Shown here piece after piece: positions 41,881-59,719 of a DNA stretch of 64,000 nucleotides (its first letter is position 1; each line of letters begins with the position of its first letter). Position numbers and translations under genes: made by a program. The notes below the pieces were generated by a model. That model searched no databases. It saw nothing but the letters and a program-made list of their open reading frames with translations, and was not told the origin of the DNA. The stretch is from assembly GCF_010994755.1 (NCBI RefSeq), contig NZ_WHSB02000001.1:868001-932000 (forward strand). Direction: 5' to 3'. This DNA is from Shinella lacus. GTDB taxonomy: Bacteria; Pseudomonadota; Alphaproteobacteria; Rhizobiales; Rhizobiaceae.

Positions 41881-41894
41881 ACCTTGGTCGTATG
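41881..41894. promoter_or_regulatory. Regulon motif copy A (ACCTTGGTCGTATG), between the permease and NosR-like genes
   Basis: This is a copy of the ACCWWGGTCGYATT motif shared by the PQQ locus, embedded in the semi-palindrome GCGACCTTGGTCGTAT. It is oriented towards the NosR-like gene (61 bp before its start) and, read on the other strand, lies the same distance from the divergent permease start. Confidence 0.65.
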
Positions 41895-41941
41895 GCGGCC
41901 TCTCGCCTGGCGCGTAGAGATCGGGCTGGGAGGATCGCGCC

Positions 41942-44038
41942 ATGAGACGACGCTTTGCCCTGCTGAGCTTTCTCGTTTTCAGCCTGTTCGCCTGCGCCGG
42001 TATGGCCGGCGCGGCACCGCTCGATCGTGACGCGCTTGCAGGCCTGATCGTGCCGCCCTACGCGCTCGGCGAGCCGGTGAATGACAAGGGTGTCTGGACG
42101 TTGCTGAATTCCGGCGGCGCGGAGGCGGGTTACGTTTTCGAGACCGGTCCGCTGGCGCCGCTTCCGGGCTTTTCCGGCGCGCCCATCAACATGCTCGTGA
42201 CGATCGACCGTGACGGCCGCTTTCTCGATGTACGCCTGATTTCACACAATGAGCCGATCTTCGTTTCCGGCCTGGGGGAAGCGCCGCTGCGTGCGTTCCT
42301 CGAACAATATCGCGGCCATTCGATCCGGGAAGCACTCGTCGTCGGCACGCCGTATGGCGAGGCCGGGGGCGGCTCCGACCTCGTCTATCTCGATGGGGTG
42401 ACGAAGGCCACGGCCTCCGTTCGCATCGCACACGAATCGATCCTCGCCGCAACGCTCGCCGTCGCGCGCGAGAAGATGCAGGGCGTAGCAAGCGGTCCGC
42501 CGGTACGCCCCGATCCATCGATAGACGAAACGCTCGACTGGGCGGAACTGGTCAAGCGAGGGCTGGCCCGCAACCTGAAGGTAACCAACGCCGAACTCGA
42601 CGACGGCTTCAAGGCGACGATCTGGGCGCGCGACGATCCCGAGGCGGCGAACGACCCGCAAGGCCTGTTCCTCGATCTGTGGGTGGTCGACATCGGTCCG
42701 CCGTCCATCGCCCGGGCCGTCCTGAGCGAGGAGAGTTTCGCCGATCTTCAACGCCTGCTGCGCGTATCGCCGGACGACGAGCCCATGCTCGTCATCGATG
42801 GCGGTCGCCACGGGCTGGTCTCGGCGGACTTCGTGCGCAACACCGCGCCGGACCGGCTTGCGGCCGTACAGGACGACCTGCCGGTCGCCCTTCGCGATGC
42901 CGACATGATGGTCGAGACGCGGCGGGATGTGCCGCAGGGCACGACGATGATCCTGAGGATCGACCGGCGCCTCGGTTTCGACCCCACGCGCGACTGGATA
43001 CTCTCCGCCCAGGCCGTGCGCGCCCACGGCATGCTGAAGCCGGAAATGGGCTCGGTCCATTTTCCGCTCGCCCTGAAGGCTGACCCCGCTTTCTTCCTGC
43101 GGCCGCAAACGTCAAAGGCGCTGCCGCCCTGGCAGGCCGCCATCGTCGACCGAAAATGGGATGTTGCCGGGCTTGGCATCCTGCTTGCGGGCTTGATCGG
43201 CGCAGTCGGCCCCGGCATGCACCGGCTCGCGGCGCCGACGGTGCTGCGCCCGGCACGGCTGGCCTTTCTGGGCCTGATGATCGGCTTCGTGGGCTGGTGG
43301 GGCCAGGGCCAGCTTTCGATCGTCACGCCGCTCGCGGCACTTCGGGCCGCAAACGGCGGCGGCAGCCTGGCGGTCCTGCTCTACGATCCTTTCTCCCTGA
43401 TGATCTGGGGCGCCGCCATCCTTGGATTTGTCCTGTGGGGACGCGGCCTCTTTTGCGGATGGCTCTGCCCGTTCGGCGCGATGCAGGAATTCGCCCACCA
43501 TGCCGGCCGCCTGCTTCGGCTGCCGCAATGGAACCCCTCGCCCCTCTGGGACAGGCGTCTGAAGGCCGGCGCATGGATTTCGCTCGCCGGCCTGGTCGCC
43601 GTCACCTTTCTTGCGCCCGAAAAGATTGAAACCGCAGCCGAGATCGAGCCCTTCAAGACGGCGGTCACCACGCTCTTCCAGCGCGAATGGTACTATGTCG
43701 CCTATGCCGTCTTCTGGCTGCTCCTCGCGGCAACGACCTTCAAGGGCTTCTGCCGCTATGTCTGCCCTCTCGGCGCGGTCATGGCGCTCGGCGGCCTGTT
43801 GCGCACCCGCTCCTGGATAGCCCGCCGCGCCGAATGCGGTTCGCCCTGTCAGCTCTGCCGGGTGCGCTGCCCCTACGGCGCCATCCGCAAGACGGGCGAG
43901 ATCGCCTACAGCGAGTGTTTCCAGTGTCTCGACTGTGTTTCCATCCACGATGACGCGCAGCAATGCGTGCCGTTGGTGCTGGCGCAGCGAAAGCGTGCGC
44001 CAATCCAAACGCTTGCCAAGGTGGAGGCACGGGTATGA
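41942..44038 (+). CDS. NosR/NirI-like membrane flavo-iron-sulfur protein
   Basis: This 698-residue protein has a signal peptide (residues 1-25), a periplasmic FMN-binding domain whose likely flavinylation site is T157 in VTKATAS, a long periplasmic region, and from about residue 400 several membrane segments. These are interspersed with CGWLCPFGAM and CRYVCPLGAV, followed by two cysteine sets (CGSPCQLCRVRCP and CFQCLDC) for [4Fe-4S] clusters. NosR proteins pass electrons across the inner membrane to periplasmic enzymes. No nosZ or denitrification gene is near, so here it probably serves the quinoprotein system. The ApbE gene follows with an ATGA overlap. Confidence 0.88.
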   Translation: MRRRFALLSFLVFSLFACAGMAGAAPLDRDALAGLIVPPYALGEPVNDKGVWTLLNSGGAEAGYVFETGPLAPLPGFSGAPINMLVTIDRDGRFLDVRLISHNEPIFVSGLGEAPLRAFLEQYRGHSIREALVVGTPYGEAGGGSDLVYLDGVTKATASVRIAHESILAATLAVAREKMQGVASGPPVRPDPSIDETLDWAELVKRGLARNLKVTNAELDDGFKATIWARDDPEAANDPQGLFLDLWVVDIGPPSIARAVLSEESFADLQRLLRVSPDDEPMLVIDGGRHGLVSADFVRNTAPDRLAAVQDDLPVALRDADMMVETRRDVPQGTTMILRIDRRLGFDPTRDWILSAQAVRAHGMLKPEMGSVHFPLALKADPAFFLRPQTSKALPPWQAAIVDRKWDVAGLGILLAGLIGAVGPGMHRLAAPTVLRPARLAFLGLMIGFVGWWGQGQLSIVTPLAALRAANGGGSLAVLLYDPFSLMIWGAAILGFVLWGRGLFCGWLCPFGAMQEFAHHAGRLLRLPQWNPSPLWDRRLKAGAWISLAGLVAVTFLAPEKIETAAEIEPFKTAVTTLFQREWYYVAYAVFWLLLAATTFKGFCRYVCPLGAVMALGGLLRTRSWIARRAECGSPCQLCRVRCPYGAIRKTGEIAYSECFQCLDCVSIHDDAQQCVPLVLAQRKRAPIQTLAKVEARV

Positions 44039-44910
44039 AACGACGACGGTTCCTCTTCATTGCCGCGGCGGCTGCGTTTTCCGGCGCTGCCCGCGCTGAA
44101 AACACGACTTGGCAGGCAGACATGCTTGGTGGCACGGTTCGGGTGGATCTGCGCGGACCGCGCGGCCTTGCGCAGGATATCGTCGGACGGATTGGCAGCA
44201 CAATTGCCGAAGTCGAGGCCGTCGCCAGCCTGTTCAAAACCGGATCGGCCCTCAGCAGGCTCAATGCCGTGGGCCATCTGGACGATCCGCCGCCGGCTCT
44301 TCTCGATCTCCTACGCCTCGCCAACCACGTCCATCAGGCAACAGCTAGTCGTTTTGACCCAACGGTGCAGCCCCTCTGGCGCGCGCTCGCCGAAGGGCGC
44401 GACACCACCGAAGCACAGGCCGCGATCGGTTGGGAGCGGGTGCGTATCGGGTCGTCCATCCAGCTTGCTCACGGCCAAGCGCTGACCTTGAACGGCATCG
44501 CGCAGGGCTACGCGGCTGATCGGGTCCGCCGTCTGCTATTGGCGGAAGGCTATGCGCAGGCGCTCGTGGACATGGGGGAATTTGCCGCCATCGGCGGTCC
44601 CTTCAGCGTATCCGTCGAAGATCCGGCCCTGGGCCAGATCGCCACGCGTCGCCTCGCCGGCAACGCCATTGCGACCTCAATCCCTTCGGCCATGATGCTC
44701 GGCACCGGCTTCCATATTCTCGGACCCCATGGTGAGCGGCCCTGCTGGTCGACCATCTCGGTGGAGGGAGAAAGTGCCGCCATGGCGGACGGCTTTTCGA
44801 CCGCCTTCTGCCTGATGACACGCGACGAGATCCACGCGACCCTGCGTCGTGTTCCCGGCATCACGCGGGTCACCGCGGTCGATGAGGCCGGCGATGTTTC
44901 GACCTTCTGA
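44035..44910 (+). CDS. apbE: FAD:protein FMN transferase
   Basis: This 291-residue ApbE-family protein has an N-terminal signal of Tat-like character (MKRRRFLFIAAAAA) and the family motifs SALSRLNAVG, SRFDPTVQPLW and LNGIAQGYAADRV, then the metal-binding region with TSIPS. ApbE attaches FMN to a Thr or Ser of periplasmic flavodomains. The start overlaps the stop of the NosR-like gene, and that protein carries a matching TKAT site, so it is almost certainly its substrate. The gene ends 2 bp before the convergent binding-protein gene. Confidence 0.92.
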   Translation: MKRRRFLFIAAAAAFSGAARAENTTWQADMLGGTVRVDLRGPRGLAQDIVGRIGSTIAEVEAVASLFKTGSALSRLNAVGHLDDPPPALLDLLRLANHVHQATASRFDPTVQPLWRALAEGRDTTEAQAAIGWERVRIGSSIQLAHGQALTLNGIAQGYAADRVRRLLLAEGYAQALVDMGEFAAIGGPFSVSVEDPALGQIATRRLAGNAIATSIPSAMMLGTGFHILGPHGERPCWSTISVEGESAAMADGFSTAFCLMTRDEIHATLRRVPGITRVTAVDEAGDVSTF

Positions 44911-44912
44911 GA

Positions 44913-45809
44913 CTATCGTTCCGGCGGCGTGAAGGTCAGGCCATGCGCCTCGAAAACCCGCGCGATTTCCCCGTCGGCAAGCGCTTTTTCGATCGCCTCG
45001 TCGACGGCATAGGCGAGGTCCTTGTGCTGGAAATTCACGCCCACGCCGATTGTCCAGCTTCCACGCGCAAAGCCGACAAGCGGCAGAGAATGGACCTTCA
45101 GCCCGGCATCCGGATGGCGCACGAGCCCGGCTTCCAGCTCCGCGCGCGGCCCCATCGCCGCCTTGGTGTCGCCGTCCGCCAGGCCGTCCATCGCCGCAGC
45201 GGTCGAGCGATAGCGATGGATCTTGTCCACCGGGCCGATCAGGGACGTCAGGTAAAAGTCCGAGATCGCGTCGTTTTCGACCGCCACCGCGTCGAACCGG
45301 AAGAAGGGCGGGGTCGGCGCCTTCTCTTCATAGTCGGACGCGCGATAGGCGATGGCGATGCTTTCCCTGGCGTATTTCCCGGTAAAGCTCACCTGCTCGA
45401 TACGACAGACAAGCGCGCTGTCATAGGGCACATGCAGCATCACGTCGCTGACCCGCCCGCCGACGGCAGCGCCCTTCCAGACATAATTCAACAGATCGGC
45501 TTCGAGATTCTCGCCGGCCGCGACAAGGCGGAATTTCGCCTCGACGCCGAGGGCCTTCGCAACCAGCCGGCCGATCTCGATATCCACGCCGACAGCCTTG
45601 CCCTTCTCTTCGTAGGACCAGGGGGCATAATTCTCGTAGACGGCGAACTCGATCCAGCCGTCCTCGATGATCCGGTCGAATTCGCGCCCGACATCCTGCG
45701 CGAAGGTGTTCTGCGGCTTGGCCTGCGGCACATAGTCCTCGCAACGCGCAAAAGCGCCGCCCGGAAGGGCGACGCCGAGGACCATGGCCAGAAGTGTACG
45801 GCGCAGCAT
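44913..45809 (-). CDS. Quinoprotein dehydrogenase-associated SBP_bac_3 protein (XoxJ/MxaJ-like)
   Basis: This 298-residue periplasmic protein has a signal peptide (residues 1-21) and the bacterial solute-binding family 3 fold, with AVYENYAPWSYEEKGKAVGVDIEIG near residue 55. It belongs to the group found next to PQQ-dependent dehydrogenases, which includes XoxJ, thought to help maturation or activation of the dehydrogenase and not transport. It follows the cytochrome c gene by 6 bp and has no partner permease here. Confidence 0.88.
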   Translation of the reverse strand: MLRRTLLAMVLGVALPGGAFARCEDYVPQAKPQNTFAQDVGREFDRIIEDGWIEFAVYENYAPWSYEEKGKAVGVDIEIGRLVAKALGVEAKFRLVAAGENLEADLLNYVWKGAAVGGRVSDVMLHVPYDSALVCRIEQVSFTGKYARESIAIAYRASDYEEKAPTPPFFRFDAVAVENDAISDFYLTSLIGPVDKIHRYRSTAAAMDGLADGDTKAAMGPRAELEAGLVRHPDAGLKVHSLPLVGFARGSWTIGVGVNFQHKDLAYAVDEAIEKALADGEIARVFEAHGLTFTPPER

Positions 45810-45815
45810 GGCGGG

Positions 45816-46502
45816 TTACTGCGTGGCCGAAAGGCCGACCGTCAGCACCTCGGCCGCCTTCTTCCAGCTTTCCGGCTTGTCCGACAGGATGCGCGCGGCC
45901 TCATAGGTGACGCTGTCGGCAACCGGCGCGCCGGAGGCGGTCTTCACTTCGGTCGCGATCGTCTCCAGCTCCTTCTTGATCGCGCCCGTATCGGCCACCT
46001 TGCCGCTGCCGAGTTCGTCGCGGATTTCATGGAGGCGCTTGGCGTGGGCGTCGAGCGCACCATCCTCCGGCCGTGTCTCCACATAGGTGCGGATCGCCCA
46101 GGCGGCCTTCTGGCCAAGAATGTCGCCGAAGGCCGGCATCTTGGTCGTGCCGTCCTGCGTATAACCGTGACGGAAGCGCTCCACGAACCACTCGTCGCCA
46201 ACCTCTTCCGCTTCCAGAAAGCGCAGGTCCGGCGCAAGCCCGCCGGACACTGCACCCAAGCCATGACAGCGCGCGCAGTTCTGGGTATAGCCCGAGGCGC
46301 CGATCTCGACGGCTTTCAACCAGGCCTCATGGCCGATCTTCGCCTCGCGATAGGGGTTTTCGGTCAGCCACTCCTCGCCCACCTCGGGCAGCGCATCGGT
46401 ATTGACCGGTTGCGGCGCGACATCGCCATGCGCAATCACCAGGCTCGTCGTCGCCATGAGAATGAATGCGGCGACCCCGCCGCGAATGATGTTGGCCGAC
46501 AT
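45816..46502 (-). CDS. Periplasmic cytochrome c (PedF/c550-type) of the alcohol oxidation system
   Basis: This 228-residue exported class I cytochrome c has a signal peptide (to about residue 25) and a single haem site, C76-A-R-C79-H80. A likely axial methionine is in TTKMPAFGD near residue 120. The C-terminal extension of about 80 residues is helical and lacks a second haem site. It matches the c550-type electron acceptor of quinoprotein ethanol dehydrogenases. AAGGAGG precedes the ATG. It is transcribed with the XoxJ-like gene from a divergent promoter that carries a motif copy oriented towards it. Confidence 0.9.
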   Translation of the reverse strand: MSANIIRGGVAAFILMATTSLVIAHGDVAPQPVNTDALPEVGEEWLTENPYREAKIGHEAWLKAVEIGASGYTQNCARCHGLGAVSGGLAPDLRFLEAEEVGDEWFVERFRHGYTQDGTTKMPAFGDILGQKAAWAIRTYVETRPEDGALDAHAKRLHEIRDELGSGKVADTGAIKKELETIATEVKTASGAPVADSVTYEAARILSDKPESWKKAAEVLTVGLSATQ

Positions 46503-46560
46503 GCCGTCCTCCTTCGCATTTCCAACTGCGCATTTTGTAAGGCAGCACGGGCGCGGCGCG

Positions 46561-46575
46561 ATATGCGACCTAGGT
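46561..46575 (-). promoter_or_regulatory. Regulon motif copy B, facing the cytochrome c gene
   Basis: Read on the minus strand this is ACCTAGGTCGCATAT, 73 bp before the cytochrome c start codon. It lies within the perfect 14-bp palindrome GCGACCTAGGTCGC at 46565-46578. Confidence 0.65.
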
Positions 46576-46591
46576 CGCGGCGGCGCATGGC

Positions 46592-46605
46592 ACCAAGGTC
46601 GTATT
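46592..46605 (+). promoter_or_regulatory. Regulon motif copy C, facing the plus-strand PQQ-associated operon
   Basis: ACCAAGGTCGTATT lies 60 bp before the start codon at 46652. With copy B it gives this divergent promoter one copy in each direction. Confidence 0.7.
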
Positions 46606-46651
46606 TCTAGCTTTCCCCCATGGCGACATGGTTGTTGCGGGAGGATGCGAC

Positions 46652-47839
46652 ATGCGGGAATGCTTCAAAGCGAGCCGGAAAGGCTTGTGGCTTGCGGCCG
46701 CGGCTTTCTGCTGGGCATACCCTGCCGCAGCCGACATTGCGATATCGATGACCTATCTCCGCCAGGAGATGCAGGCGCCGCCGGTGCTTTCCAATCTCGA
46801 CCCGATTCCGGAAGACCGCGGAATTGCGGGCGCGGAGGTGGCGCTGACCGACACCAAGACCACCGGCAGCTTCATGGGCCACGACTATAGCCTCGCATTG
46901 CTGTCGGTCGAACCCGATGGCGACTTCCTCGACGCCGCCCGCAAGGCGCTTGCCACGTCGAAAATCCTGTTCATCGACGCGCCGCCCGAAGGCATTCTCG
47001 CCGTGGCCGACCTGCCGGAAGCCAAGGGCGCGCTCCTCTTCAACGTCTCCTCCGGCGCGCGGCGGCTGCGGGACGCGGATTGCCGCGCCAACGTGCTGCA
47101 CACCATGGCGGAGGATGCCATGCGCACGGACGCGCTGATGCAGGTGCTAAAGGCGCGGCGCTGGACCCGCACGGTGCTGATCGTCGGACCGAAGCCGGAG
47201 GACCGCGCCTTCGCCGACACGCTGCGCGCCTCCGCGCAAAAATTCGGCGTCGAGATCCTCGCCGCGAAGGACTGGACGTTCGACACGGACCTGCGGCGCG
47301 CCGCCGGCCAGGAAATCCCCCTCTTCACCCAGGATTTTCCCGACCACGACATCCTGCTGATCGCCGACGAGGCCGACGATTTCGCGCGTTACGTTCAGGA
47401 CAATACTTGGCTGCCGCGACCGGTCGCGGGCTCGGATGGCCTACGCGGCGAGGGCTGGGCGCCGGTGCTGGAACAGTGGGCCGCCGTGCAGCTCCAGAAC
47501 CGCTTCGAAAAGGCGGCGGGGCGCGAGATGGGCTCGCGCGACTATGCCGCCTGGACGGCGCTACGCACCATCGGCGAGGCCGTCACGCGAACCAATTCCG
47601 CCGATCCCTCGGTACTACGCACCTTCATCCTGTCTAAAAAATTCGCCCTCGACGGCTTCAAGGGCCGCAGCCTCACGTATCGCGACTGGGATGGCCAACT
47701 GCGCCAGCCGATGGCGGTGGTCAATGCGCGCGCGCTGGTCGAACTCGCGCCGCTCGACGGCTACCTGCACCAGACCAACGAAATGGACACGCTGGGCCTC
47801 GACCGGCCCGAGAGCACCTGCACCGCCTTTGGAGGATGA
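46652..47839 (+). CDS. ABC transporter substrate-binding protein, PQQ-alcohol-dehydrogenase-associated
   Basis: This 395-residue exported protein (signal peptide to about residue 27, PAAAD) belongs to the branched-chain-type binding proteins that occur only beside PQQ-dependent alcohol dehydrogenases. The start at ATG 46652 follows GGGAGGA; an in-frame start eight codons upstream lacks a ribosome site. Visible segments are DFPDHDILLIADEADDFARY (residues 225-245) and GRSLTYRDWDGQLRQPM near the C terminus. Pseudomonas putida PedA1A2BC, a related system, is needed for growth at low lanthanide, so metal acquisition or sensing is a plausible role. The gene is followed after 1 bp by the beta-propeller gene. 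Confidence 0.87.
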   Translation: MRECFKASRKGLWLAAAAFCWAYPAAADIAISMTYLRQEMQAPPVLSNLDPIPEDRGIAGAEVALTDTKTTGSFMGHDYSLALLSVEPDGDFLDAARKALATSKILFIDAPPEGILAVADLPEAKGALLFNVSSGARRLRDADCRANVLHTMAEDAMRTDALMQVLKARRWTRTVLIVGPKPEDRAFADTLRASAQKFGVEILAAKDWTFDTDLRRAAGQEIPLFTQDFPDHDILLIADEADDFARYVQDNTWLPRPVAGSDGLRGEGWAPVLEQWAAVQLQNRFEKAAGREMGSRDYAAWTALRTIGEAVTRTNSADPSVLRTFILSKKFALDGFKGRSLTYRDWDGQLRQPMAVVNARALVELAPLDGYLHQTNEMDTLGLDRPESTCTAFGG

Positions 47840-47840
47840 G

Positions 47841-48806
47841 ATGAAATTTCCGGCCCTGCTGATCGCGCCCATGCTGGCCGCCATGCCGCTTCAGGCACTT
47901 GCCGGAGAGATCTGGGTGACGAACGAGAAGGACGACACGATTTCCGTGATCGATACGCAGACGCTGGAAATGGTGCGCACCATCAAGACCGGCGAGCGTC
48001 CGCGCGGCATCACCTTCAATTCCGACCACAGCCGCGTCTATATCTGCGCCTCCGACAGCGACACGGTGCAGGTGATGGACCCCGCAACCGGCGAGATCCT
48101 GCACGACCTGCCCTCCGGCGAGGACCCCGAGCAGTTCGTGCTCGCCCCGGACGACAAGCATTTATGGATCGCCAACGAGGACGATGCCGTGACGACGGTC
48201 GTCGATGTCGAGACCCGGCAGGTCGTGGCGCAGGTCAATGTCGGCATCGAGCCGGAAGGCATGGCGGTCTCGCCGGATGGCAAGATCGTCATCACCACGT
48301 CGGAAACGACGAACATGGCGCACTGGATCGACACCGGCACCAAAAAGATCTTCGCCAACACGCTCGTCGATTCCCGTCCACGCCATGCCGAGTTTGCCAA
48401 GGGCGGAACAGAGCTCTGGGTCTCGTCCGAAATCGGCGGCACGATCACCGTCTTCGACGTGGCCACGCAGGCGGAAAAAGCCAAGATCCGCTTCGAGATC
48501 ACCGGCGTCAATGCCGACCTCGTCCAGCCCGTCGGCTTCGAGTTCACGCCGGACGGCAAGATGGCCTTCGTCGCCCTTGGCCCTGCCAACCATGTCGCGG
48601 TGATCGATGCCGATACGTTCGCGGTCAAGTCCTACGTCCTGGTCGGCCGTCGGGTCTGGCACCTCGCCTTCTCGCCGGACCACACGCAGCTTTTCACCAC
48701 CAACGGCGTCTCCGGCGACGTGACCGTCATCGACGTCGCCTCGCTGGAACCCGTGAAATCCATCAAGGTTGGCCGCTTCCCCTGGGGCGCGGCGAGCCGG
48801 CCATAA
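47841..48806 (+). CDS. PQQ-dependent catabolism-associated beta-propeller protein (YVTN family)
   Basis: This 321-residue periplasmic protein has a signal peptide (residues 1-21) and about seven YVTN-type repeats, each of the form INT-DTQTLEMVRTIKTGERPRGI, such as SVIDTQTLEMVRTIKTG and VTVIDVASLEPVKSIKVG. It belongs to the propeller proteins linked to PQQ-dependent catabolism. The biochemical role is not established; a scaffold or chaperone for the dehydrogenase or its cofactor is a common suggestion. The ATG is 1 bp after the preceding stop codon. Confidence 0.87.
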   Translation: MKFPALLIAPMLAAMPLQALAGEIWVTNEKDDTISVIDTQTLEMVRTIKTGERPRGITFNSDHSRVYICASDSDTVQVMDPATGEILHDLPSGEDPEQFVLAPDDKHLWIANEDDAVTTVVDVETRQVVAQVNVGIEPEGMAVSPDGKIVITTSETTNMAHWIDTGTKKIFANTLVDSRPRHAEFAKGGTELWVSSEIGGTITVFDVATQAEKAKIRFEITGVNADLVQPVGFEFTPDGKMAFVALGPANHVAVIDADTFAVKSYVLVGRRVWHLAFSPDHTQLFTTNGVSGDVTVIDVASLEPVKSIKVGRFPWGAASRP

Positions 48807-48827
48807 CAGTCGAAGAGGGAGGACATC

Positions 48828-49283: not shown

Positions 49284-49290
49284 GCAACAC

Positions 49291-50004
49291 ATGAGCGGCT
49301 TGACGGTAGAGGACATCAGCCACGACTGGGGCGCCCGGCGCGCCCTCGACGGTGTGTCCTTTACCGTCGAACGCGGCCGCTTCTGCGCGCTGCTCGGGCC
49401 GAACGGCGCCGGAAAATCGACACTGTTCGGTATGCTCACGCGGCTCTTCACGCCGCACACCGGCCGCATCGCGATCGCCGGCCATGACATGGCCCGCGCG
49501 CCGCGCGCCGCCCTTGCCCGCATGGGCGTCGTGTTCCAGGCCTCCACGCTCGATCCGGACCTGACCGTCAGGCGCAACCTGCTCTACTTCGCAGCCTTGC
49601 ACGGGCTCTTCGGACGGGAGGCGGAGACGCGCGCCATGGCAGCGCTGGAGCGGCTCGGCATGGCGGAGCGGGCGGAGGAGAAGGCCGCAAGGCTGAACGG
49701 CGGGCACCGCCGGCGCATGGAAATCGCGCGTGCCCTCATCCACCGGCCCGACGTGCTGCTACTGGACGAGCCGACGGTGGGGCTGGATGCAGCCTCGCGC
49801 GCCGCCATCACGCAGCACGTGCACGATCTTGCTTCCGGAGGGCTGACGGTGCTGTGGGCGACCCATCTGGTGGACGAGGTGCGCCCGCAGGACCGGCTCG
49901 TCATCCTGCACCACGGCCGGGTGCTGGCCGATGGCGAAGCCGGAGACATTGGCGGTACGGATTTGACCGGCCGATTTCTTGCGCTCACCGGAGATCGGCC
50001 ATGA
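49291..50004 (+). CDS. ABC transporter ATP-binding protein, PQQ-alcohol-dehydrogenase-associated
   Basis: This 237-residue ATPase of the ABC-2 (exporter) type has Walker A GPNGAGKST, Walker B VLLLDEPTVGLD and an altered signature LNGGHRRR in place of LSGGQ. It pairs with the ABC-2 permease whose gene overlaps it as ATGA. It belongs to the ATPase group that accompanies PQQ-dependent alcohol dehydrogenases (PedC-like). Direction of transport is uncertain, because the same operon also encodes a binding protein. Confidence 0.9.
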   Translation: MSGLTVEDISHDWGARRALDGVSFTVERGRFCALLGPNGAGKSTLFGMLTRLFTPHTGRIAIAGHDMARAPRAALARMGVVFQASTLDPDLTVRRNLLYFAALHGLFGREAETRAMAALERLGMAERAEEKAARLNGGHRRRMEIARALIHRPDVLLLDEPTVGLDAASRAAITQHVHDLASGGLTVLWATHLVDEVRPQDRLVILHHGRVLADGEAGDIGGTDLTGRFLALTGDRP

Positions 50005-50843: not shown

Positions 50844-50867
50844 CCAAGGCCGCAAAGGAGAATTGCC

Positions 50868-52033: not shown

Positions 52034-52979
52034 CGGGCAGCTCTTTCAGGTCGCCGACCAGATCGGCACCGCCAAGTTCGGTCATGAGGGCCAGCATGCG
52101 TGCGGCCGCCTTTTCATCCACCACGCGCCTTTCTGGCGTGCCCGCGAGGAAACCCGCCTTCAGCGCTTCGAATTCCGCATCGGTCTCCGCCCGCATCATC
52201 GGCCGAATGCGCTCCCATGCCGCCGGATCGGCGGCAAGCTTGTCCTTCGCCTGGCGCGAAGCGGTGGCGATCGCTTCGCCCAGTCCGGGATGGCTCTTCA
52301 GGATGTCGCCCCGCACGACGTAGCCGATCAGCGGGGTCTCCGGATCGAGGCCGAGGGCTTTCGCGGCCTCGTCGACGCCGACCAGCGTGCGCATGCCCGC
52401 CGCCTGCATGCGTGCGCCAAAATTCCAGAAGTTGAGGGCGCCCTGCACCTCGCCGTCGAGGGCGGCTTTGTAGATCAGCGGCGGCGCGCCGAAGACCTGC
52501 TCGGTCGTGCCGGAAAGATCAAAATGCTCCACCTTCTGCGCATAGGCGCGCAGGATCAGCCAGCTCTTGTCGATCGGGCTGCCGGCGACGCCGATCTTCT
52601 GGCCTTTCAGGTCGGCAAGGCTTTTTGCCGTGCTGTCCGCCGGCACCATCAGGCCGCCGACCGCACGCGAATAGGGAATGAACACGACGTCGCGGCCGGC
52701 GGCCCGCTCCCGCGCCACCCAAAGCCAGTCGGAGACAATGACGTCCACCTCGCCTCCGGCAAGCGCAATCTGGGCCGCGGGAGCGCCGGCAATGTCCATC
52801 ACCTCCATCGTAAAGCCGTTCGCCGTGTCGAAACCGTAGTGACGGATCGTATCGACTTCCCAGTTCACGGTGCCCGAAAGCTGGAGCGCGGCGCGCACGA
52901 CAGCCGGCTCGGCGAGCGCCGGCAGGCTGGACAGAACCGCGGCAAATGCTGCCGCGACGAACGATTTCAGGATTGTCAT
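52005..52979 (-). CDS. ABC transporter substrate-binding protein (SsuA/TauA-like) of the PQQ locus
   Basis: This 324-residue exported protein (signal peptide to about residue 23, ALAEP) belongs to the NMT1/TauA class. Visible segments are INWEVDTIRHYGFD-like GTVNWEVDTIRHYGFD near residue 40, GGEVDVIVSDWLWVARERAAGRD (given in part) and DLKGQKIGVAGSPIDKSW. It is the first gene of a two-gene unit with the ATPase. It is divergent from the alcohol dehydrogenase gene, and the shared 191-bp promoter has two motif copies, one facing each way. Confidence 0.9.
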   Translation of the reverse strand: MTILKSFVAAAFAAVLSSLPALAEPAVVRAALQLSGTVNWEVDTIRHYGFDTANGFTMEVMDIAGAPAAQIALAGGEVDVIVSDWLWVARERAAGRDVVFIPYSRAVGGLMVPADSTAKSLADLKGQKIGVAGSPIDKSWLILRAYAQKVEHFDLSGTTEQVFGAPPLIYKAALDGEVQGALNFWNFGARMQAAGMRTLVGVDEAAKALGLDPETPLIGYVVRGDILKSHPGLGEAIATASRQAKDKLAADPAAWERIRPMMRAETDAEFEALKAGFLAGTPERRVVDEKAAARMLALMTELGGADLVGDLKELPDGVFHHPGS

Positions 52980-53030
52980 GGGCTCTCCTCCCCTGCTCCT
53001 GCGATGCTATCCGCCGCGGGCACAGCCCGA

Positions 53031-53055
53031 TATACGACCTATTGGGGGCCCCCAA
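53031..53055 (-). promoter_or_regulatory. Regulon motif copy D' (half-degenerate) and adjoining GC palindrome
   Basis: Read on the minus strand, 53045-53031 is CCAATAGGTCGTATA, matching the right half of the motif (GGTCGTAT) about 65 bp before the binding-protein start. The perfect 14-bp palindrome TTGGGGGCCCCCAA at 53042-53055 overlaps it and may be a separate operator. Confidence 0.5.
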
Positions 53056-53079
53056 GGACACCCGGGTCTCGGCATTACG

Positions 53080-53093
53080 ACCAAGGTCCAATT
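53080..53093 (+). promoter_or_regulatory. Regulon motif copy D, facing the quinoprotein dehydrogenase gene
   Basis: ACCAAGGTCCAATT lies 91 bp before the dehydrogenase start codon, preceded by ACG so that the left half matches the palindromic form ACGACC. It differs from the consensus at the G of GGTCG. Confidence 0.6.
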
Positions 53094-53170
53094 CATCCGT
53101 TGCAAGAGTGAGCAGATGATCCACGCCATGAAGCCCGCATCGATCTGCGGGCAGGGAGTGGGAGGATGCC

Positions 53171-54937
53171 ATGAGGAGTCTCGTTCTGGCCGCGGTTGCG
53201 GCCATTGCCTGTGCGGGTGCCGTGCAGGCCGGCGTAACGGAGGAGGATCTCGCAAAGGACGCCGAAACCGCCGCCGACGTGCTGACCAACGGCATGGGGC
53301 GCGGCCTGCAGCGCTTCTCGCCGATGGAGACGCTGAACACGAAGAACGTCAAGAACCTGCTGCCGGCCTGGGCGTTCTCGCTCGGCGGCGAAAAGCAGCG
53401 CGGCCAGGAAAGCCAGCCGATCATCTATGACGGCATGATGTATATTACCGGCTCCTACAGCCGCCTCTATGCCATCGACATCAAGACCGGCAAGGAAGTC
53501 TGGCAGTACGATGCCCGCCTGCCGGAAGGCATCCTGCCCTGTTGCGACGTGGTCAATCGCGGCGCGGCGATCTTCGGCGACAACATCTTTTTCGGCACCC
53601 TCGATGCCCGCCTCGTGGCGCTCAATCGCAAGACGGGCGATGTCGTCTGGAACAAGAAGATCGCCGACTACAAGGAAGGCTACAGCTACACCGCCGCACC
53701 GCTGATCGTGAACGGCCTCGTCGTCACGGGCAATTCCGGCGGCGAATTCGGTGTCGTCGGCGAGGTGCAGGCGCGCAATGCCGAGACCGGCGAGCTTGTC
53801 TGGACCCGGCCCGTGATCGAAGGCCACATGGGCACCTTCAAGGGCAAGGAAAGCACGATGACCGGGACGCTCAACGCGACCTGGCCCGGCGACATGTGGA
53901 AGACGGGCGGCGGCGCGACCTGGCTCGGCGGCTCGTACGACGAAGACACGAAGACGCTCGTCTTCGGCGCGGGCAACCCCTCGCCCTGGAACAGCCACCT
54001 GCGCGGCGCCGGCAAGCCGGTGGACGGCAACAAGGGCGACAACCTCTATGCCGCCTCGCGCATCGGCATCGATCCGGAAAACGGCGAGATCAAGTGGCAC
54101 TTCCAGACCACGCCGCGCGAAGGCTGGGATTTCGACGGCGTCAACGAGGTCGTGCCCTTCGTCGACAAGGACGGCAACAAGCGCTTTGCGACGGCCGATC
54201 GCAACGGTTTCTTCTACGTGCTGAACCGCGAGGACGGCAAGTTCGTCTCCGCCCATCCCTTCGTGAAGAACATCAGCTGGGCGAAGGGCATCGATGAGAC
54301 GGGCCGCCCGATCTACAACGAGGACAACCGTCCGGGCGATGCCGCCGCCGCCGCCGATGGCGCCAAGGGCCAGCAGGTCTTCGCCGTACCGTCGTTCCTT
54401 GGCGGCAAGAACTGGATGCCGATGGCCTACAGCCCGAAGACCGGCCTGTTCTACGTTCCCTCCAACGAATGGGGCATGGACATCTGGAACGAGCCGATCA
54501 GCTACAAGAAGGGTGCCGCCTATCTCGGCGCTGGCTTCACGATCAAGCCGCTCTTCGAGGATCATATCGGCAGCCTGAAGGCGATCGACCCCAATACGGG
54601 CGAGATCAAGTGGGAATACAAGAACGGCGCTCCGCTCTGGGGCGGCGCGATGACCACCGCCGGCGGCCTCGTCTTCTTCGGAACGCCCGAAGGCGATTTC
54701 GTCGCCCTCAACAACGAGACCGGCGAGGAGCTCTGGAAGTTCCAGACCGGCTCCGGGATCGTCGGACAGCCGGTGACCTGGGAACAGGACGGCGAGCAAT
54801 ATGTCTCGGTGATTTCCGGCTGGGGCGGCGCGGTCCCCCTGTGGGGCGGTGAGGTGGCCAAGAAGGTCAACTATCTCAACCAGGGCGGCATGGTCTGGAC
54901 CTTCCGCCTGCCAAAACAGCTCGCAGCGCTGGACTGA
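53171..54937 (+). CDS. exaF: PQQ-dependent alcohol dehydrogenase, lanthanide (ExaF/PedH) type
   Basis: This 588-residue periplasmic quinoprotein has a signal peptide (residues 1-20) and an eight-bladed propeller. The vicinal disulfide is C124-C125 (PCCDVVNRG). Metal and PQQ ligands are E192 (GGEFGV), N269 (GNPSPWN) and the catalytic D320. D322 (WDFDGVNE) is the extra Asp that marks lanthanide-dependent XoxF, ExaF and PedH; calcium enzymes usually have a small residue there. It oxidises primary alcohols such as ethanol, passing electrons to cytochrome c or pseudoazurin. It is monocistronic with its own terminator. ExaF-type is preferred over XoxF by the disulfide-loop context and the ped-like neighbours. 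Confidence 0.9.
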
Positions 54938-54943
54938 GACGAC

Positions 54944-54967
54944 AAGCCGGGCGGAAACGCCCGGCTT
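54944..54967 (+). terminator. Rho-independent-like terminator after the dehydrogenase gene
   Basis: This is a perfect 10-bp stem, AAGCCGGGCG and CGCCCGGCTT, with a GAAA loop, 6 bp after the stop codon. It is followed by CCTGCTTTC, so the T-tract is interrupted. Confidence 0.75.
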
Positions 54968-55015
54968 CCTGCTTTCTGCACGGGCCAACAAGGCCGATGA
55001 AGACGGACGAAATCA

Positions 55016-55738
55016 ATGCTAAGCTATCGCCAGCCCTTTCGGGAATTTCGCATGATGCCAGTCCCAGCCCCCGAGAAACCCGTGCGCACGCTGAAATCGG
55101 CGCTGATCGTCGACGATCACCCGCTGTTTTGCGATGCGCTGGCGATGACCTTGACCGGTCCGGTCGGCATTCCGGACGTCGAGGCCGTCGGTGCGCTTGA
55201 GGCGGCGCTTGCGAGGCTGGAGACCGGCCCGCTGCCCGACGTGGTCGTGCTGGATCTCAACCTTCCCGACGTCAACGGGCTCGACGGGGTGGTGCGCCTG
55301 CGCCGCGCCCTGCCGGACACGCCGATCGTCGTCGTCTCCTCGCTCGACGAGATCCGCGTCGTGCGCGCGGCACTCAAGGCCGGCGTCAATGCCTTCGTGC
55401 CCAAACACGCCTCCCGCGAAGAATTCCGCGAGGCGTTCGCCGTCATTGCACGCGGCGAAATCCATGCGAGCCGCATGGCGCTCGAAGCCTCGGCGCCGAC
55501 GCCGTCGGAAGAGGCGGTGAAGCGGCTGGCATTGCTGACCCGCCAGCAGGCGCGCATCCTGCAACTCGTCTGCGCCGGGCGCATGAACAAGCACATCGCC
55601 TATGAGCTTTCCATCGCGGAAACCACCGTGAAGGCTCATGTCACCGCCATCATGCGCAAGCTCGGCGTGCAGACGCGCATGCAGGCCGTGCTTTTCGCCC
55701 AGGAGGCAAGTTTCAACGTCATGGCGACCGATATCTGA
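55016..55738 (+). CDS. LuxR-type response regulator (ExaE/AgmR/PedR-like)
   Basis: This 240-residue protein has a receiver domain with the acidic pocket IVDDHPLF and phospho-acceptor Asp in VVVLDLNLPDVNG (residue 80 counted from this start), and a C-terminal GerE/LuxR HTH (KHIAYELSIAETTVKAHVTAIM region). Regulators of this type control PQQ-dependent alcohol oxidation in pseudomonads. It is the most likely protein to bind the shared ACCWWGGTCGYATT motif. Two ATGs at 55051-55056 (MMPVPAPEK) are alternative starts. Its own upstream region has no clear motif copy. Confidence 0.9.
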   Translation: MLSYRQPFREFRMMPVPAPEKPVRTLKSALIVDDHPLFCDALAMTLTGPVGIPDVEAVGALEAALARLETGPLPDVVVLDLNLPDVNGLDGVVRLRRALPDTPIVVVSSLDEIRVVRAALKAGVNAFVPKHASREEFREAFAVIARGEIHASRMALEASAPTPSEEAVKRLALLTRQQARILQLVCAGRMNKHIAYELSIAETTVKAHVTAIMRKLGVQTRMQAVLFAQEASFNVMATDI

Positions 55739-55820
55739 CAACGAACTGCGTGCTGGCGTCCGGTCATCATGGATGCTCTAAGCTTTAAGGCGGGGGAACC
55801 GGCGGAGGAGGCCATCACCC

Positions 55821-56972
55821 GTGGAGGAACAGTTCATCACGCGTGCGCTCGCATCGGCGCATGACGCCCATGCGGTCGAGAGACTGGCGTCAAGCCTCGG
55901 TCCCGGCCCGTTCTCGCTCGTCCTGTTGTTCGTCTCGCCGGAAGCCGACGTGCCCGGCATCGTCTCGGGCGCGGCAAAGGCCTGGCCGGATGCACGCATC
56001 GCCGGCTGTACCACCGCCGGAGAAATCTCCGGCGCCGGCTATGAGGACGGAAGCATCGTCGCCATCGGTTTCCGTGCACGCCATTTCGCGGCCGAAACGC
56101 TGCTCATTCCGGATCTGTCGCAGCTTGCGGCAAGCGAGCTTTCGGAGGCGCTGCTGCATGTGAGGCAATCGCTCGCCCGCGATCACGGGCACCTGCCCGA
56201 AGAGTTCGCGCTGCTGTTCGTCGATGGGTTGTCGGCGCGCGAGGACGAACTTGCCTCGGTGCTTGCCGCCGGCACGGGCGCAATGCCGCTCATCGGCGGA
56301 TCGGCCGGCGACGGCACGAATTTCCGCGAAACCCTCGTCTTCGACGGCAGGCAGCTTCTGGCAAATGCCGCGGTGATTTCCGTCATGCGCGGCGCCTGTC
56401 CGCTGCGGGCCTTCAAAATGGACCATATCAGGCCGACGGAGCGGCGCATGGTCGTAACCGAAGCCGACCCTGCCGCCCGCATCGTGCGAAAGATCAACGC
56501 CGAACCCGCCGTGCAGGAATATGCCCGTCTCATCGGCATGCAGCCGGAAAGCGTCGATACCCTCACCTTCGCGATCCATCCGCTTACCGTGCGCATGGGC
56601 GAGCGCCACCACGTGCGTGCTATCCAACGCGTTCTGCCGTCCGGCGAACTCCTGTTCTTTTCGGCGATCGACGAGGGAATGGTTCTCACCATCGCCGAAC
56701 CGCACGATCTCGTGGACCACCTGGCGGGCGAATTGCAGGCCCTGAAACAGCCGGGAAACCCCGTCGCCGTGCTTGCTTTCGACTGCATCCTGCGGCGCGT
56801 CGAGGCGCAGGAAAAACAGATGACCGGCCGCGTTTCCGAGCTTCTGCGGCATCATGGCGTCATCGGCTTTTCCACCTATGGCGAGCAGATCGGCCCGATG
56901 CACATCAACCATACCATGACCGGTTTTGCCTTCTACCCGCCCGGCACGATCCTTTCGGGAAGCGATCCATGA
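55821..56972 (+). CDS. FIST-domain sensor protein (NosP-like)
   Basis: This 383-residue protein has FIST_N (LVLLFVSPEADVPGIVSGAA, then GCTTAGEISGAGY) and FIST_C domains. FIST proteins bind small ligands or haem. In Pseudomonas the NO sensor NosP is encoded next to the hybrid kinase NahK (ErcS'), which belongs to the ethanol-oxidation regulatory set, and the same gene pair is seen here. It starts with GTG after GGAGGAG, and its end overlaps the kinase start by 4 bp. It probably supplies the input signal to that kinase; whether it senses NO, a metal or an alcohol is unknown. Confidence 0.87.
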   Translation: MEEQFITRALASAHDAHAVERLASSLGPGPFSLVLLFVSPEADVPGIVSGAAKAWPDARIAGCTTAGEISGAGYEDGSIVAIGFRARHFAAETLLIPDLSQLAASELSEALLHVRQSLARDHGHLPEEFALLFVDGLSAREDELASVLAAGTGAMPLIGGSAGDGTNFRETLVFDGRQLLANAAVISVMRGACPLRAFKMDHIRPTERRMVVTEADPAARIVRKINAEPAVQEYARLIGMQPESVDTLTFAIHPLTVRMGERHHVRAIQRVLPSGELLFFSAIDEGMVLTIAEPHDLVDHLAGELQALKQPGNPVAVLAFDCILRRVEAQEKQMTGRVSELLRHHGVIGFSTYGEQIGPMHINHTMTGFAFYPPGTILSGSDP

Positions 56973-59161
56973 ACACACGCCTGTCCGAAGGATTGCTCGA
57001 CCCCGCCGACGGCGAGACGAAAAACCTCGAAAAGATGCTCGTCATTGCCGATGCCCTCATCCGCCATGTCGAGCAGAATTCCGGCGACAGGGGTGCGGCC
57101 TTCGAGCAGTTCCGCCGCGCCGCGGTTCTGGAGGACCGGGTGCGCCAGCGCACGCGCGACCTCGAAACAACGCTGAAGCAGCTCAACGACGCCAACAGCG
57201 CCGCCGAGCGGGCGAGACGAGACCTGTCCCAGGCAATCGAGGCGGTCGATGAGGGTTTCGCCCTTTTTGACCCCGCCGACATCCTCGTGCTCTGCAATTC
57301 CCGCTTCTGTCGCGACCTCACCGACGTCCGCCCGAAACTCTTTCCCGGCATCGCCTTTGCCGATTACGTGGAAATCGTCAGCCGTTCCACGATGCTGGCC
57401 TTTCCCAAAGGCGTCACGGTCAAGGCCTGGGCTGCGGAACGCATGCGCCTGCATCGGACCCGGCAGGTTTTCAATGTCGGGCTGACCGGCGACCGCTGGC
57501 TTCAGGTCAGCGAGCAGCGCACCGCCGATGGCGGCACCGTCATCCTCCAGACCGATATCACCGACATCATCCGCATGGAGCGCTCAGAACGCGGCAAGCT
57601 GCTGGACGACCAGGCCCGCATGATCCGCGCGACGCTGGAGCACATCAACCAGGGCGTCGGCATCTTCGACGCAAACCGCCGGCTGGCCGGCTGGAACGGT
57701 CGCGTCGCGCAGCTTCTCGACATTCCGCCGCGGCTGCTGCGGCGGGGAACGCCGTTCGAATTGCTGGCGGACCGCATTGCCCGCTCGATCACCCTCAGCG
57801 ACGGTTTTTCCGCCGACATGTTACGCCAATGGATCGACGGCCGCCTGCCGCGCGAACCCCTGTCCTTCGAACTCCAGCACGTCTCGGGCATCATCCTCGA
57901 CGTCTTTGCGCAGGAAATGCCAGGGCGCGGCTTCGTCATGTCGTTTGCCGACGTGACGCGCGAGCGCCTTGCCATCCACGCCATGATCCGCGCCAACAGC
58001 TCGCTGGAAGCGCGCGTGGCGGCGCGCACCGGGGATCTCGCGGCAGCGCTTGCCGAGGCCGAACGCGCCAATTCCGCCCGCGTCCGCTTCGTCGCGGCGG
58101 CGAGCCACGATCTGCTGCAACCACTGTCGGCCGCAAAACTCTTCGTCGCGGCGGCGCGTGACGATGCGGGCGCAACCCCGATGTGCGGGACGCTGGAAAA
58201 GGCACACAATGCCCTTGTCAGCGTGGAGGGGATCCTCGGCGCATTGCTCGACATTTCCCGCCTGGAGGCCGGCGGCGCTGCGGTCGATATCGGCCCGGTT
58301 CCTCTTTCCGTTCTCCTCAACCAATTGACCGACGAGTTCGCCCCCATCGCCGCCCGCAAGGGCCTGCGGCTCGACATTCTGCACTGCGGCCTCACCGTCT
58401 CGAGCGATCCAACCTACCTGCGCCGCATCCTTCAGAACCTGATCAGCAACGCCATCCGCTACACGAGCAGCGGCCGCGTCCTCGTCGGGCCGCGGCGGGT
58501 AAAAGGACATGTGCGCATCGAGGTACATGACACCGGGCCGGGCATCGCGGCAGACCAGCAGCAATCGATCTTTCGCGAGTTCCACCGCATCCAGGGTTCC
58601 GCCTCGGCATCCGAAGGGATGGGGCTCGGCCTTGCGATCGTGGAAAGGGCCTGCGGCCTGCTTGGCCACCGGCTGGCGCTTTATTCGGAGCCTGGGCGCG
58701 GCACCTGTTTCGCCGTCGATCTGGCCGTTGTTCCGCACCACGCCAAACCGGCCTACCGGGAGACCGCGCCGGCAATACCCGAGGAGCCGGGCGACAACTC
58801 CGACCGCATCGCGCTTCTCGTGGAGAACGACGAGGACCTGCGCCGCGCCATCTCCCTGCTCCTAGAGCGGCGCGGGGTCAGCGTGCTCGAAGCGGCAAGT
58901 GGCGAAGAGGCGCTCTCCCTTCTGGAAGAAATCGGCATCGTGCCCGACCTTTATCTGATCGACCAGCAACTCAACGGCACGCTCACCGGCATCGAAACCG
59001 TGCTGGCGCTGCATGCGGAATATGGCGAGCGCCCCACCCGCCTGCTCACCGCCAACCGCACGCCGCAGACGCGGCTTGCCGCGGACGCCGCGGGCATCGA
59101 GGTCATGTACAAACCGATCGCTGCGGACGCGCTGGAGGCCTTCGTGCTGCACGCCAGCTGA
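56969..59161 (+). CDS. Hybrid sensor histidine kinase (NahK/ErcS'-like)
   Basis: This 730-residue cytoplasmic kinase has an N-terminal coiled coil ([18 protein letters not shown]), two PAS-like domains (starting [13 protein letters not shown] and [12 protein letters not shown]) and the HisKA box [14 protein letters not shown] with H380. The HATPase domain follows ([26 protein letters not shown]), and a C-terminal receiver has phospho-acceptor D665. The receiver's usual acidic pair is E-N-D in LLVENDED. No membrane segment or signal peptide is present. It overlaps the FIST gene by ATGA and is expected to signal to the LuxR-type regulator upstream. Confidence 0.9.
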
Positions 59162-59167
59162 CCCGGC

Positions 59168-59181
59168 ACCAAGGTCGCATT
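59168..59181 (+). promoter_or_regulatory. Regulon motif copy E, facing the pseudoazurin gene
   Basis: ACCAAGGTCGCATT lies 70 bp before the pseudoazurin start codon, just after the kinase stop codon, and matches the consensus fully. Confidence 0.7.
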
Positions 59182-59237
59182 GCGACACGGCGTGCCAGAT
59201 GGGACATCCCTTCCACCCGAATTGGAGGAGGAAGGAC

Positions 59238-59684
59238 ATGAAGAAGCTACTCGCGGCAACCGCCCTGATGATCCTTGCAAGCGGTGCGGCACAGGCGGCC
59301 GAACACGCCGTCAAGATGATGAACAAGGGCGAAAGCGGCGCCATGGTCTTCGAACCGGCCGCCATCGCGGCGGCACCCGGCGATACGATCCGCTTCATCC
59401 CGACGGACAAGAGCCACAATGTCGAGGGTATCAAGGGCATGCTTCCCGAAGGCGTAAAACCCTTCAAGAGCAAGGTGAACCAGGAATATGTCCTGAAGGT
59501 CAGCGAGCCCGGCTTCTACGGCGTTAAGTGCTCGCCGCACTACAGCATGGGCATGGTCGCCCTCATCCGGGTCGGCGATGGTTCCCCCAATCTCGACGCT
59601 GCGAAAGCGGTGAAACTGCCGAAGAAAGCGGCGGAGCGCATGATGGCTGCCTTCGATACGCTGGCCGCAGCGGCGGTGAACTGA
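59238..59684 (+). CDS. Pseudoazurin (type I blue copper protein)
   Basis: This 148-residue exported cupredoxin has a signal peptide (residues 1-20, AAQA), then the pseudoazurin fold. The copper ligands are H60 (KSHNVE), C98, H101 and M106 ([10 protein letters not shown]). It carries single electrons in the periplasm. Here it probably links the quinoprotein dehydrogenase or cytochrome c to the terminal oxidase. AGGAGGAAGGAC precedes the ATG. It has its own motif-bearing promoter and lies 99 bp upstream of pqqA. Confidence 0.95.
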
Positions 59685-59705
59685 CCCCGGTTTAAGAGAC
59701 CCAAG

Positions 59706-59719
59706 ACCTTGGTCGCATT
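59706..59719 (+). promoter_or_regulatory. Regulon motif copy F, facing pqqA
   Basis: ACCTTGGTCGCATT lies 78 bp before the pqqA start codon, in the gap after the pseudoazurin gene, and matches the consensus fully. It implies that PQQ synthesis is co-regulated with the dehydrogenase. Confidence 0.7.

Follow-up and report, generated by a model that had tools for sequence, protein, structure and literature searches.

A conserved directional dyad as the putative operator of a two-component regulon for lanthanide- and PQQ-dependent alcohol oxidation in Shinella lacus

We analyzed a 64,000-nucleotide stretch of Shinella lacus DNA (contig NZ_WHSB02000001.1, positions 868,001 to 932,000; here called the window, whose numbering is used throughout) that holds a quinoprotein alcohol-oxidation locus, the promoters of which an initial annotation had described as marked by a directional motif. 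Judged from sequence, this motif appears to be a real and conserved operator of a local two-component regulon for lanthanide- and pyrroloquinoline quinone (PQQ)-dependent alcohol oxidation, and it is very probably bound by the response regulator encoded at 55016-55738. The analysis establishes the positions of the sites, their conservation, their co-occurrence with the regulator, the presence of an AT that faces the gene and the distance to a -10-like hexamer.

Scanning the window with the pattern ACCWWGGTCGYATT at up to three mismatches (<=3) gave 25 matches, compared with 13.9 ± 3.8 expected, and none of 100 shuffled controls reached this number. Exact copies lie on the plus strand at 46592, 59168 and 59706, and these are the only three in the 7.04-Mb genome, which places the motif beyond what random DNA would supply. 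Copies with one mismatch are found at 41881 (plus), 46562 (minus) and 53074 (minus), and one with two mismatches at 53080 (plus). The 53074 and 53080 matches are the same dyad read on opposite strands and, as the minus-strand match has one mismatch and the plus-strand match two, the best full match at the dehydrogenase gene xoxF points away from that gene. When the window is scored with the 22-bp matrix described below, the sole sites at 10 or more (>=10) are the following dyads, to which the degenerate importer site is added.

41881..41894, plus strand: operator site of the NosR-like/ApbE operon; axis 41884.5, 57 bp before the start; one mismatch, matrix score 23.9.
46562..46575, minus strand: operator site of the pedF-like cytochrome c gene; axis 46571.5, 69 bp before the start; one mismatch, matrix score 27.4, supported by alignment.
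46592..46605, plus strand: operator site of the pedA1A2BC-like operon (PQQ-associated ATP-binding cassette (ABC)/lanthanide transporter); axis 46595.5, 56 bp before the ATG at 46652; exact, matrix score 29.1, in a conserved block across the aligned loci.
53031..53044, minus strand: degenerate operator of the importer substrate-binding gene, with the strong half-site AGGTCGTAT only; axis 53040.5, 61 bp before the start.
53074..53093, no strand assigned: 20-bp operator dyad before xoxF, centred at 53083.5, 87 bp upstream of the start; its strong GGTCG half is the distal one, and the outer AATT looks toward xoxF.
59168..59181, plus strand: operator site of the pseudoazurin gene; axis 59171.5, 67 bp before the start; exact, matrix score 29.3.
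59706..59719, plus strand: operator site of pqqA and the pqq operon; axis 59709.5, 74 bp before the start; exact, matrix score 23.5, supported by alignment with five relatives.

The initial annotation had claimed seven copies before six promoters, although its own list names seven promoters. Six of the copies hold within two mismatches, whereas that at 53031 has more than three, a matrix score of 8.0 and thus the strong half only. We retained it as the half-site operator for the importer gene because its core ATACGACCTA is invariant in all 12 aligned sequences (from the window and from 11 relatives), and so is a TAnnnT located 32 bp away from the axis. The minus-strand cytochrome c copy is present with its one mismatch but begins at 46562 rather than 46561. 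Two divergent regions do carry one site per direction (46562 minus with 46592 plus, and 53031 minus with 53080 plus), and the distance of 60-91 bp given from the first base of the motif agrees with our axes at 56-87 bp before the start codons. The 41881 site may also serve a divergent ABC permease gene. An Rfam scan of 41000-63000 returned no family reaching its gathering threshold.

The pattern had been derived from the sites of the window itself, so that the independent evidence comes from other genomes. Using the regulator as the query, we fetched 80 loci (the best 80 of 174 relatives), which contain 102 sites at one mismatch or less (<=1) before the same promoters, and none for the reversed pattern. 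A 22-bp matrix was then built from 52 distinct sites of 18 of these loci and applied to the 62 loci not used in it with a threshold of >=13; there were 83 sites in 39 loci, whereas 100 column-permuted matrices gave a mean of 4.9 and a maximum of 36, and none reached 83. Held-out loci with an XoxF at >=70% had sites in 23 of 25 cases. Across all 80 loci we counted 151 dyads at >=13, with the two faces of a dyad merged, against four in the reversed control, where, as in the held-out test, they were unmerged; 17 of the 151 could not be assigned to a gene of a type found in the window (open reading frames 48828, 48164 and 51185 were excluded from this assignment). In a profile of 104 distinct sites, from which duplicate promoter sequences had been removed, ACC-WW-GGTC is nearly invariant, the right arm is conserved and the left arm is weak, giving the dyad symmetry about a short A/T centre that is expected of a LuxR/NarL-type operator. 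The earlier view of the motif as a regulon-wide promoter element of the quinoprotein locus is supported by the 102-to-0 count, the matrix and the held-out test, and its sites are conserved at the same promoters in relatives.

The geometry of these promoters is also constrained. In 46 of 114 promoters (importer sites excluded), a hexamer of the form xAxxxT is found at a distance of 32 bp from the axis; the other offsets, with 33 left out, average 4.1 such promoters and reach 12 at most. Counted by class after removal of duplicate promoter sequences, the hexamer is found at +32 in all nine sites upstream of NosR-like genes in relatives (eight of them from Celeribacter), in 17 of 23 transporter sites and in 16 of 27 xoxF sites; on the side facing away from genes other than xoxF, it is found in 3 of 59. 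Four of the seven window promoters fit at exactly 32, with the hexamers listed here, and the AGAGAT of the 41881 promoter does not.

46627..46632, plus strand: -10-like hexamer CATGGT, 32 bp from the 46592 axis.
53004..53009, minus strand: -10-like hexamer TAGCAT, 32 bp from the 53031 axis.
53115..53120, plus strand: -10-like hexamer GATGAT, 32 bp from the axis of the xoxF dyad.
59741..59746, plus strand: weak -10-like hexamer CAGCCT, 32 bp from the 59706 axis.

If xAxxxT is the -10 element (-12 to -7), then the axis falls at about -43.5 and the position nine bases beyond it at -35. On the side of the axis toward the gene, all seven window promoters have AT at +8 and +9, and four of the seven have TT at +9 and +10. 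The xoxF promoters separate this AT from the rest of the site: here the strong GGTCG half lies on the far side in 25 of 27 sites (25 pointing away, 2 toward), yet 18 of 19 inverted primary sites still have AT at +8 and +9 on the side of the gene, as against 17 of 56 pedF and transporter sites in a wrong-side control (p = 6e-7). As AT faces xoxF even though GGTCG is flipped, the GGTCG halves and the gene-facing AT(T) are separable parts. Of the palindromic centre and directional extension first described, the outer AT(T) is indeed directional, but the GGTCG half is itself inverted at xoxF. The opposite idea, that the extension gives no direction, was drawn from the 25-to-2 count and is overturned by the outer AT; a rejection of any -35 overlap, drawn from the 104-site profile, is reversed in part by the same gene-facing AT data. 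The AT(T) would occupy -36 to -34, the start of a -35 element, with a 17-bp spacer to the -10-like hexamer, and it continues as TTG in all 17 pseudoazurin promoter sites of relatives and in four of five pqqA sites. In Sinorhizobium/Ensifer loci (L026, L027, L028, L029 and L129) there is a second inverted site 67-117 bp further upstream of xoxF, and in L028 and L029 the pqq genes are divergent on the side of this second site.

This arrangement raises the question of whether the motif could be no more than a core-promoter element recognized by a sigma factor, without a dedicated dyad-binding regulator. The AT(T) at -36 to -34 and its 17-bp spacing would fit such a role, as would matches to TTGACA at four or more bases in 8 of 17 pseudoazurin and 3 of 5 pqqA sites. 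However, the GGTCG halves show dyad symmetry and the strongest conservation, keep their position when flipped at xoxF and are restricted to genomes with the regulator, and most promoter classes have nothing of a -35 beyond AT(T); we regard this explanation as extremely unlikely. Alternatively, the sites could be repressor operators, or the regulator could repress some targets and activate others depending on the side of the strong half-site, the flipped arrangement being confined to xoxF. There is precedent in Rhodobacter sphaeroides, where the paralogous RfdRS is thought to repress and AfdRS to activate (PMC4776306). An axis near -43.5 combined with weak -35 and -10 elements fits activation, and CrbR activates from the same position (PMC5715377), which leaves a repressive or side-dependent role unlikely, though the least so of the competing explanations that we considered.

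The assignment of the operator to the local regulator is suggested by the distribution of both among genomes. Samples of 21 genomes for the genus, 247 for the family, 387 for the class and 387 for the phylum were searched, and tblastn matches spanning less than half of the query were removed before counting. An orthologue of the regulator (81-100% identity, the next best match being 43%) is present in 6 of the 247 family genomes. Each of these six has two to four exact copies of the motif, 31 others have one and 210 have none, so that two or more exact copies (>=2) occur only in the six. XoxF-type genes are present in 17 of the 247 genomes, with 20 matches in total. All six xoxF loci of the orthologue-bearing genomes have a site within 400 bp upstream (scores 17.5-26.6), whereas none of 14 loci from the 11 genomes without the orthologue reaches 13 (best 11.6); for the 10 of these 14 with an XoxF at >=69%, the one-sided Fisher p against 6 of 6 is 1.2e-4. 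At the level of the genus, 8 of 21 genomes have the regulator, and these have 10-20 hits at one mismatch or less, compared with 3-10 in the other 13. The class sample holds four distant homologues of the regulator (51-57%) besides that of the own genome, none with exact copies, and exact copies occur in 36 of its genomes; the 17 regulator matches of the phylum sample all fall within the class. The co-occurrence of sites and regulator is strong but not decisive.

The regulator is patchy in the genus and plasmid-borne in some strains, for example on plasmid pShin-04 of Shinella HZN7 (L128). A regulator 97% identical is found in a record labelled Frigidibacter oleivorans (L010), reflecting either recent horizontal transfer or a mixed assembly.

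Outside the locus, the S. lacus genome has 12 sites with one mismatch, of which 10 lie inside stop-to-stop frames of at least 150 codons, a weak test in G+C-rich DNA. A site on contig C21 (score 12.0) was considered as a further member of the regulon and rejected, having no clear target. A whole-genome count at two mismatches or less (<=2; 214 against 97 for the reversed pattern) was set aside, since coding bias may inflate it. The remaining one-mismatch site, at C11:50486-50499 (L094:1001), is a near-palindromic dyad ∼90 bp before a methyl-accepting chemotaxis gene, which we named from reading its sequence; it too lies in a long frame, taken as spurious. This chemoreceptor gene was found in 13 of the 21 genus genomes and its promoter obtained for 12, in all of which GAC-N-AARGTC is present at the dyad. 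The base that varies is C (GACC, the ACC of the motif) in all six genomes with the regulator and G (GACG) in all six without it, and in the six with the regulator the chemoreceptor and regulator loci are on different contigs. On the receptor-gene tree there are three changes, with three of three independent pairs in the same direction (sign test p 0.25), and xAxxxT is found at +32 in 1 of the 12 loci. As the ACC/ACG split was seen late in the analysis, we treat it as a lead, one that favours the local regulator as the reader of ACC and a second regulator, perhaps an ErdR-like paralogue, as the user of the ACG form. An attribution of the C11 dyad wholly to an ErdR-like regulator, based on its occurrence with and without the local regulator, became less certain in view of the split.

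A paralogue of this kind is available. The S. lacus genome encodes, on contig C40 (L187:1174-1827), an ErdR-like response regulator that lies beside a hybrid-kinase frame, is 42% identical to the local regulator and scores 216 bits with the ErdR model NF041830, below its cut-off. Another LuxR-type response regulator such as this one could therefore be imagined to bind the sites while the local regulator acts elsewhere. It is nearer to ErdR than the local regulator is (216 against 155 bits), CrbR operators resemble the motif (PMC5715377), and the chemoreceptor dyad is kept, with G for C, in six genomes without the local regulator, from which it follows that another protein probably uses that form. 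Against this, distant homologues of the regulator (35-46% identical among the matches listed) are widespread, occurring in 214 of 247 family genomes at E <= 1e-30 with the six orthologues included, and despite this two or more exact copies are confined to genomes with a close orthologue, and XoxF-bearing genomes with only distant homologues have no site. We consider it distinctly unlikely that a paralogue is the binder, and the earlier nomination of the LuxR-type regulator at 55016 is supported by the co-occurrence, the unlinked dyad base and the look-alike operator of ErdR/CrbR. It is conceivable, if rather doubtful, that the mobile cluster has drawn an unlinked native chemoreceptor gene into its regulon, in which case acquiring or losing the alcohol-oxidation cluster would rewire a chemotaxis promoter by one base. 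Taken with the flipped strong half at xoxF and the FIST/NosP-like input, a single operator class would then link lanthanide-dependent alcohol oxidation, metal uptake, cofactor supply and chemotaxis.

The genes of the locus were identified with Pfam and NCBIfam.

41942..44038, plus strand: NosR-like 4Fe-4S membrane protein (424 bits, against a NosR cut-off of 1000).
43963..44910, plus strand: ApbE-family FAD:protein FMN transferase (family match).
44913..45809, minus strand: periplasmic substrate-binding protein family 3 (family match), presumably XoxJ-like by its position.
45816..46502, minus strand: cytochrome c-550 PedF (TIGR04494, above cut-off).
46652..47839, plus strand: PQQ-associated ABC substrate-binding protein, PedA1-like (TIGR03863, above cut-off; start set by comparison with Shinella HZN7).
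47436..48806, plus strand: open reading frame with a PQQ-associated beta-propeller protein, PedA2-like (TIGR03866, above cut-off; domain from about residue 151).
49291..50843, plus strand: ABC ATPase and ABC-2 permease, PedB/PedC-like.
52005..52979, minus strand: importer substrate-binding protein (NMT1 family).
53171..54937, plus strand: PQQ methanol/ethanol-family dehydrogenase, XoxF-like (TIGR03075, above cut-off), with WDFD in its sequence, which we take to be a lanthanide-type signature.
55016..55738, plus strand: LuxR/NarL-type response regulator, the proposed site binder (Pfam Response_reg and GerE).
55821..56972, plus strand: FIST-domain protein, AfdT/GfdT/NosP-like (domain match; names from the literature excerpts).
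56969..59161, plus strand: PAS hybrid histidine kinase.
59239..59684, plus strand: pseudoazurin (pseudoazurin-type copper protein by Pfam; name by comparison with relatives).
59784..59885, plus strand: pqqA (TIGR02107, above cut-off).

With these components we infer a scheme of binding, phosphorylation, activation, signal and feedback. The hybrid kinase, tuned by the FIST protein and responding to an alcohol, an aldehyde or a redox/nitric oxide (NO) signal, would phosphorylate the regulator, a dimer of which would bind the ∼20-bp dyad of one strong and one weak GGTCG half-site with its axis ∼43.5 bp before the transcription start. The regulator and polymerase would then share the site edge at AT(T) (-36 to -34), as in class II activation, and it is this shared edge that would make the motif directional. 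One switch would in this way serve the lanthanide-type dehydrogenase, PedF, pseudoazurin, the PedABC-like transporter, the importer, the NosR-like/ApbE pair and PQQ synthesis. The regulator genes follow xoxF at a distance of 78 bp and have no site of their own, and we propose that read-through from xoxF gives positive feedback. In Paracoccus caeni (L024:9861) there is an exact site ∼130 bp upstream of the regulator gene, which suggests autoregulation there and not in Shinella.

This mechanism is of a known kind, given its likeness to the CrbR, AfdRTS/FlhRS and AgmR systems. Operators of the NarL/DosR type are likewise dyads about a two-base centre, to which GerE-domain regulators bind as dimers, with a different half-site sequence. 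Genetic evidence shows that methanol, formaldehyde and ethanol oxidation are controlled by FlhRS, AfdRS and AgmR. CrbR, which is the same protein as ErdR (PMC8402216), controls acetate utilisation in Pseudomonas, where activation of acs depends on the ACTU motif, an imperfect inverted repeat at -52 to -36 with its axis at -44, and one gene with a listed ACTU site is a chemoreceptor (PMC5715377). By our own comparison, the ACTU sites TACTACCATCGTCGAAT and TAATACTAAGGTCGTCT each differ from ACCWWGGTCGYAT at two of 13 bases. Like ACTU, the motif is an imperfect inverted repeat that a LuxR-type regulator probably binds, and its predicted axis would be near -44 (-43.5, as deduced from the hexamer in 46 of 114 promoters); unlike ACTU, the core here is ACC-WW-GGT and the genes are quinoprotein rather than acetate genes, and although ErdR is the best NCBIfam model for the local regulator, its score of 154.8 bits misses the curated cut-off of 390.

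The order of response regulator, FIST protein and hybrid kinase, found in the window and in 76 of the 80 loci (not L024, L055, L081 and L084), is like that of AfdR-AfdT-AfdS of R. sphaeroides and FlhR-orf2-FlhS of Paracoccus denitrificans (PMC4776306), AfdT being presumably a FIST protein. The likeness to AfdRTS/RfdRTS/FlhRS, drawn through gene order and loci, would extend to the control of C1/alcohol oxidation. Identity to the regulator is 61-63% in three Cereibacter loci, 70% in L024, H11 and H12, and 55-57% in the other Paracoccus plasmid hits. In content the locus matches the AgmR (PedR1/ErbR) regulon of the Pseudomonas ped clusters, namely PedA1A2BC, PedF, a quinoprotein dehydrogenase and the pqq operon, beside which a NosP/GfdT-hybrid kinase pair adjoins the AgmR regulator (PMC12997753); direct PedR1 control has been proposed (PMC13390443). 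In the window, the PQQ-alcohol dehydrogenase, PedF, PedABC and pqq promoters have the sites in common and may be controlled together, and the XoxF-like enzyme, pseudoazurin and NosR-like/ApbE set this locus apart. The literature search, which included 14-base strings, found no publication with this site, in agreement with the earlier statement that no published site has exactly this form, although two ACTU sites come within two of 13 bases; the J Bacteriol papers on AfdRS/FlhRS lie outside its coverage and may print one. Nor did the literature searched yield an operator for FlhRS, AfdRS or AgmR. As far as these searches show, the operator sequence, its two-part build and its assignment to the regulator are new.

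Several observations weigh against this interpretation. In the held-out set, sites are few where all four target genes are absent from the region covered: the 26 such loci yield 10, in 6 of them. The -10-like signal is carried by only three of six promoter classes, with xAxxxT at exactly +32 in one of five pqqA promoters (three of five at 33), 1 of 33 pedF and 2 of 17 pseudoazurin promoters, and the rows counted are homologous and not independent. Regulator and cluster sites are physically linked, so that their co-occurrence is in part co-inheritance. Three class genomes (G395, G476 and G470) without a regulator match (E <= 1e-60) each have a pair of exact copies, located on different contigs or 0.8 Mb from one another, which are either chance or the work of another regulator. 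The ACC/ACG base was noticed after the fact, and three independent pairs cannot reach significance. Finally, glutathione-dependent formaldehyde dehydrogenase genes, the known targets of AfdRS/FlhRS (adhI/flhA), had no upstream site at >=13 in any of 30 cases (best 8.3) in the loci examined, a difference from those systems; the scan took in the 600 bp (450 in L169) ahead of 30 copies, out of 33 over-cut-off copies listed for 22 genomes, and a farther promoter is possible.

The analysis defines a precise candidate operator, seven promoters and a predicted distance to the transcription start, with which the regulon could be predicted across many members of the Rhizobiaceae and Rhodobacteraceae. 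A single switch would tie together lanthanide uptake, PQQ supply, electron carriers and perhaps chemotaxis.

The nearest named relatives are Shinella and other Rhizobiaceae, with more loci in Rhodobacteraceae. In Paracoccus sp. TOH the same trio adjoins pedF and a PQQ dehydrogenase, and a site scoring 24.0 (L126:9392) lies between pedF and a divergent gene for a PQQ-associated CXXCW protein. Cereibacter loci without a nearby xoxF (L075:8332, L063:14306 and L087:14115) have a site after the hybrid kinase gene, which in L075 precedes frames that, judged by eye, resemble CoxG, a 2Fe-2S protein and a molybdenum hydroxylase.

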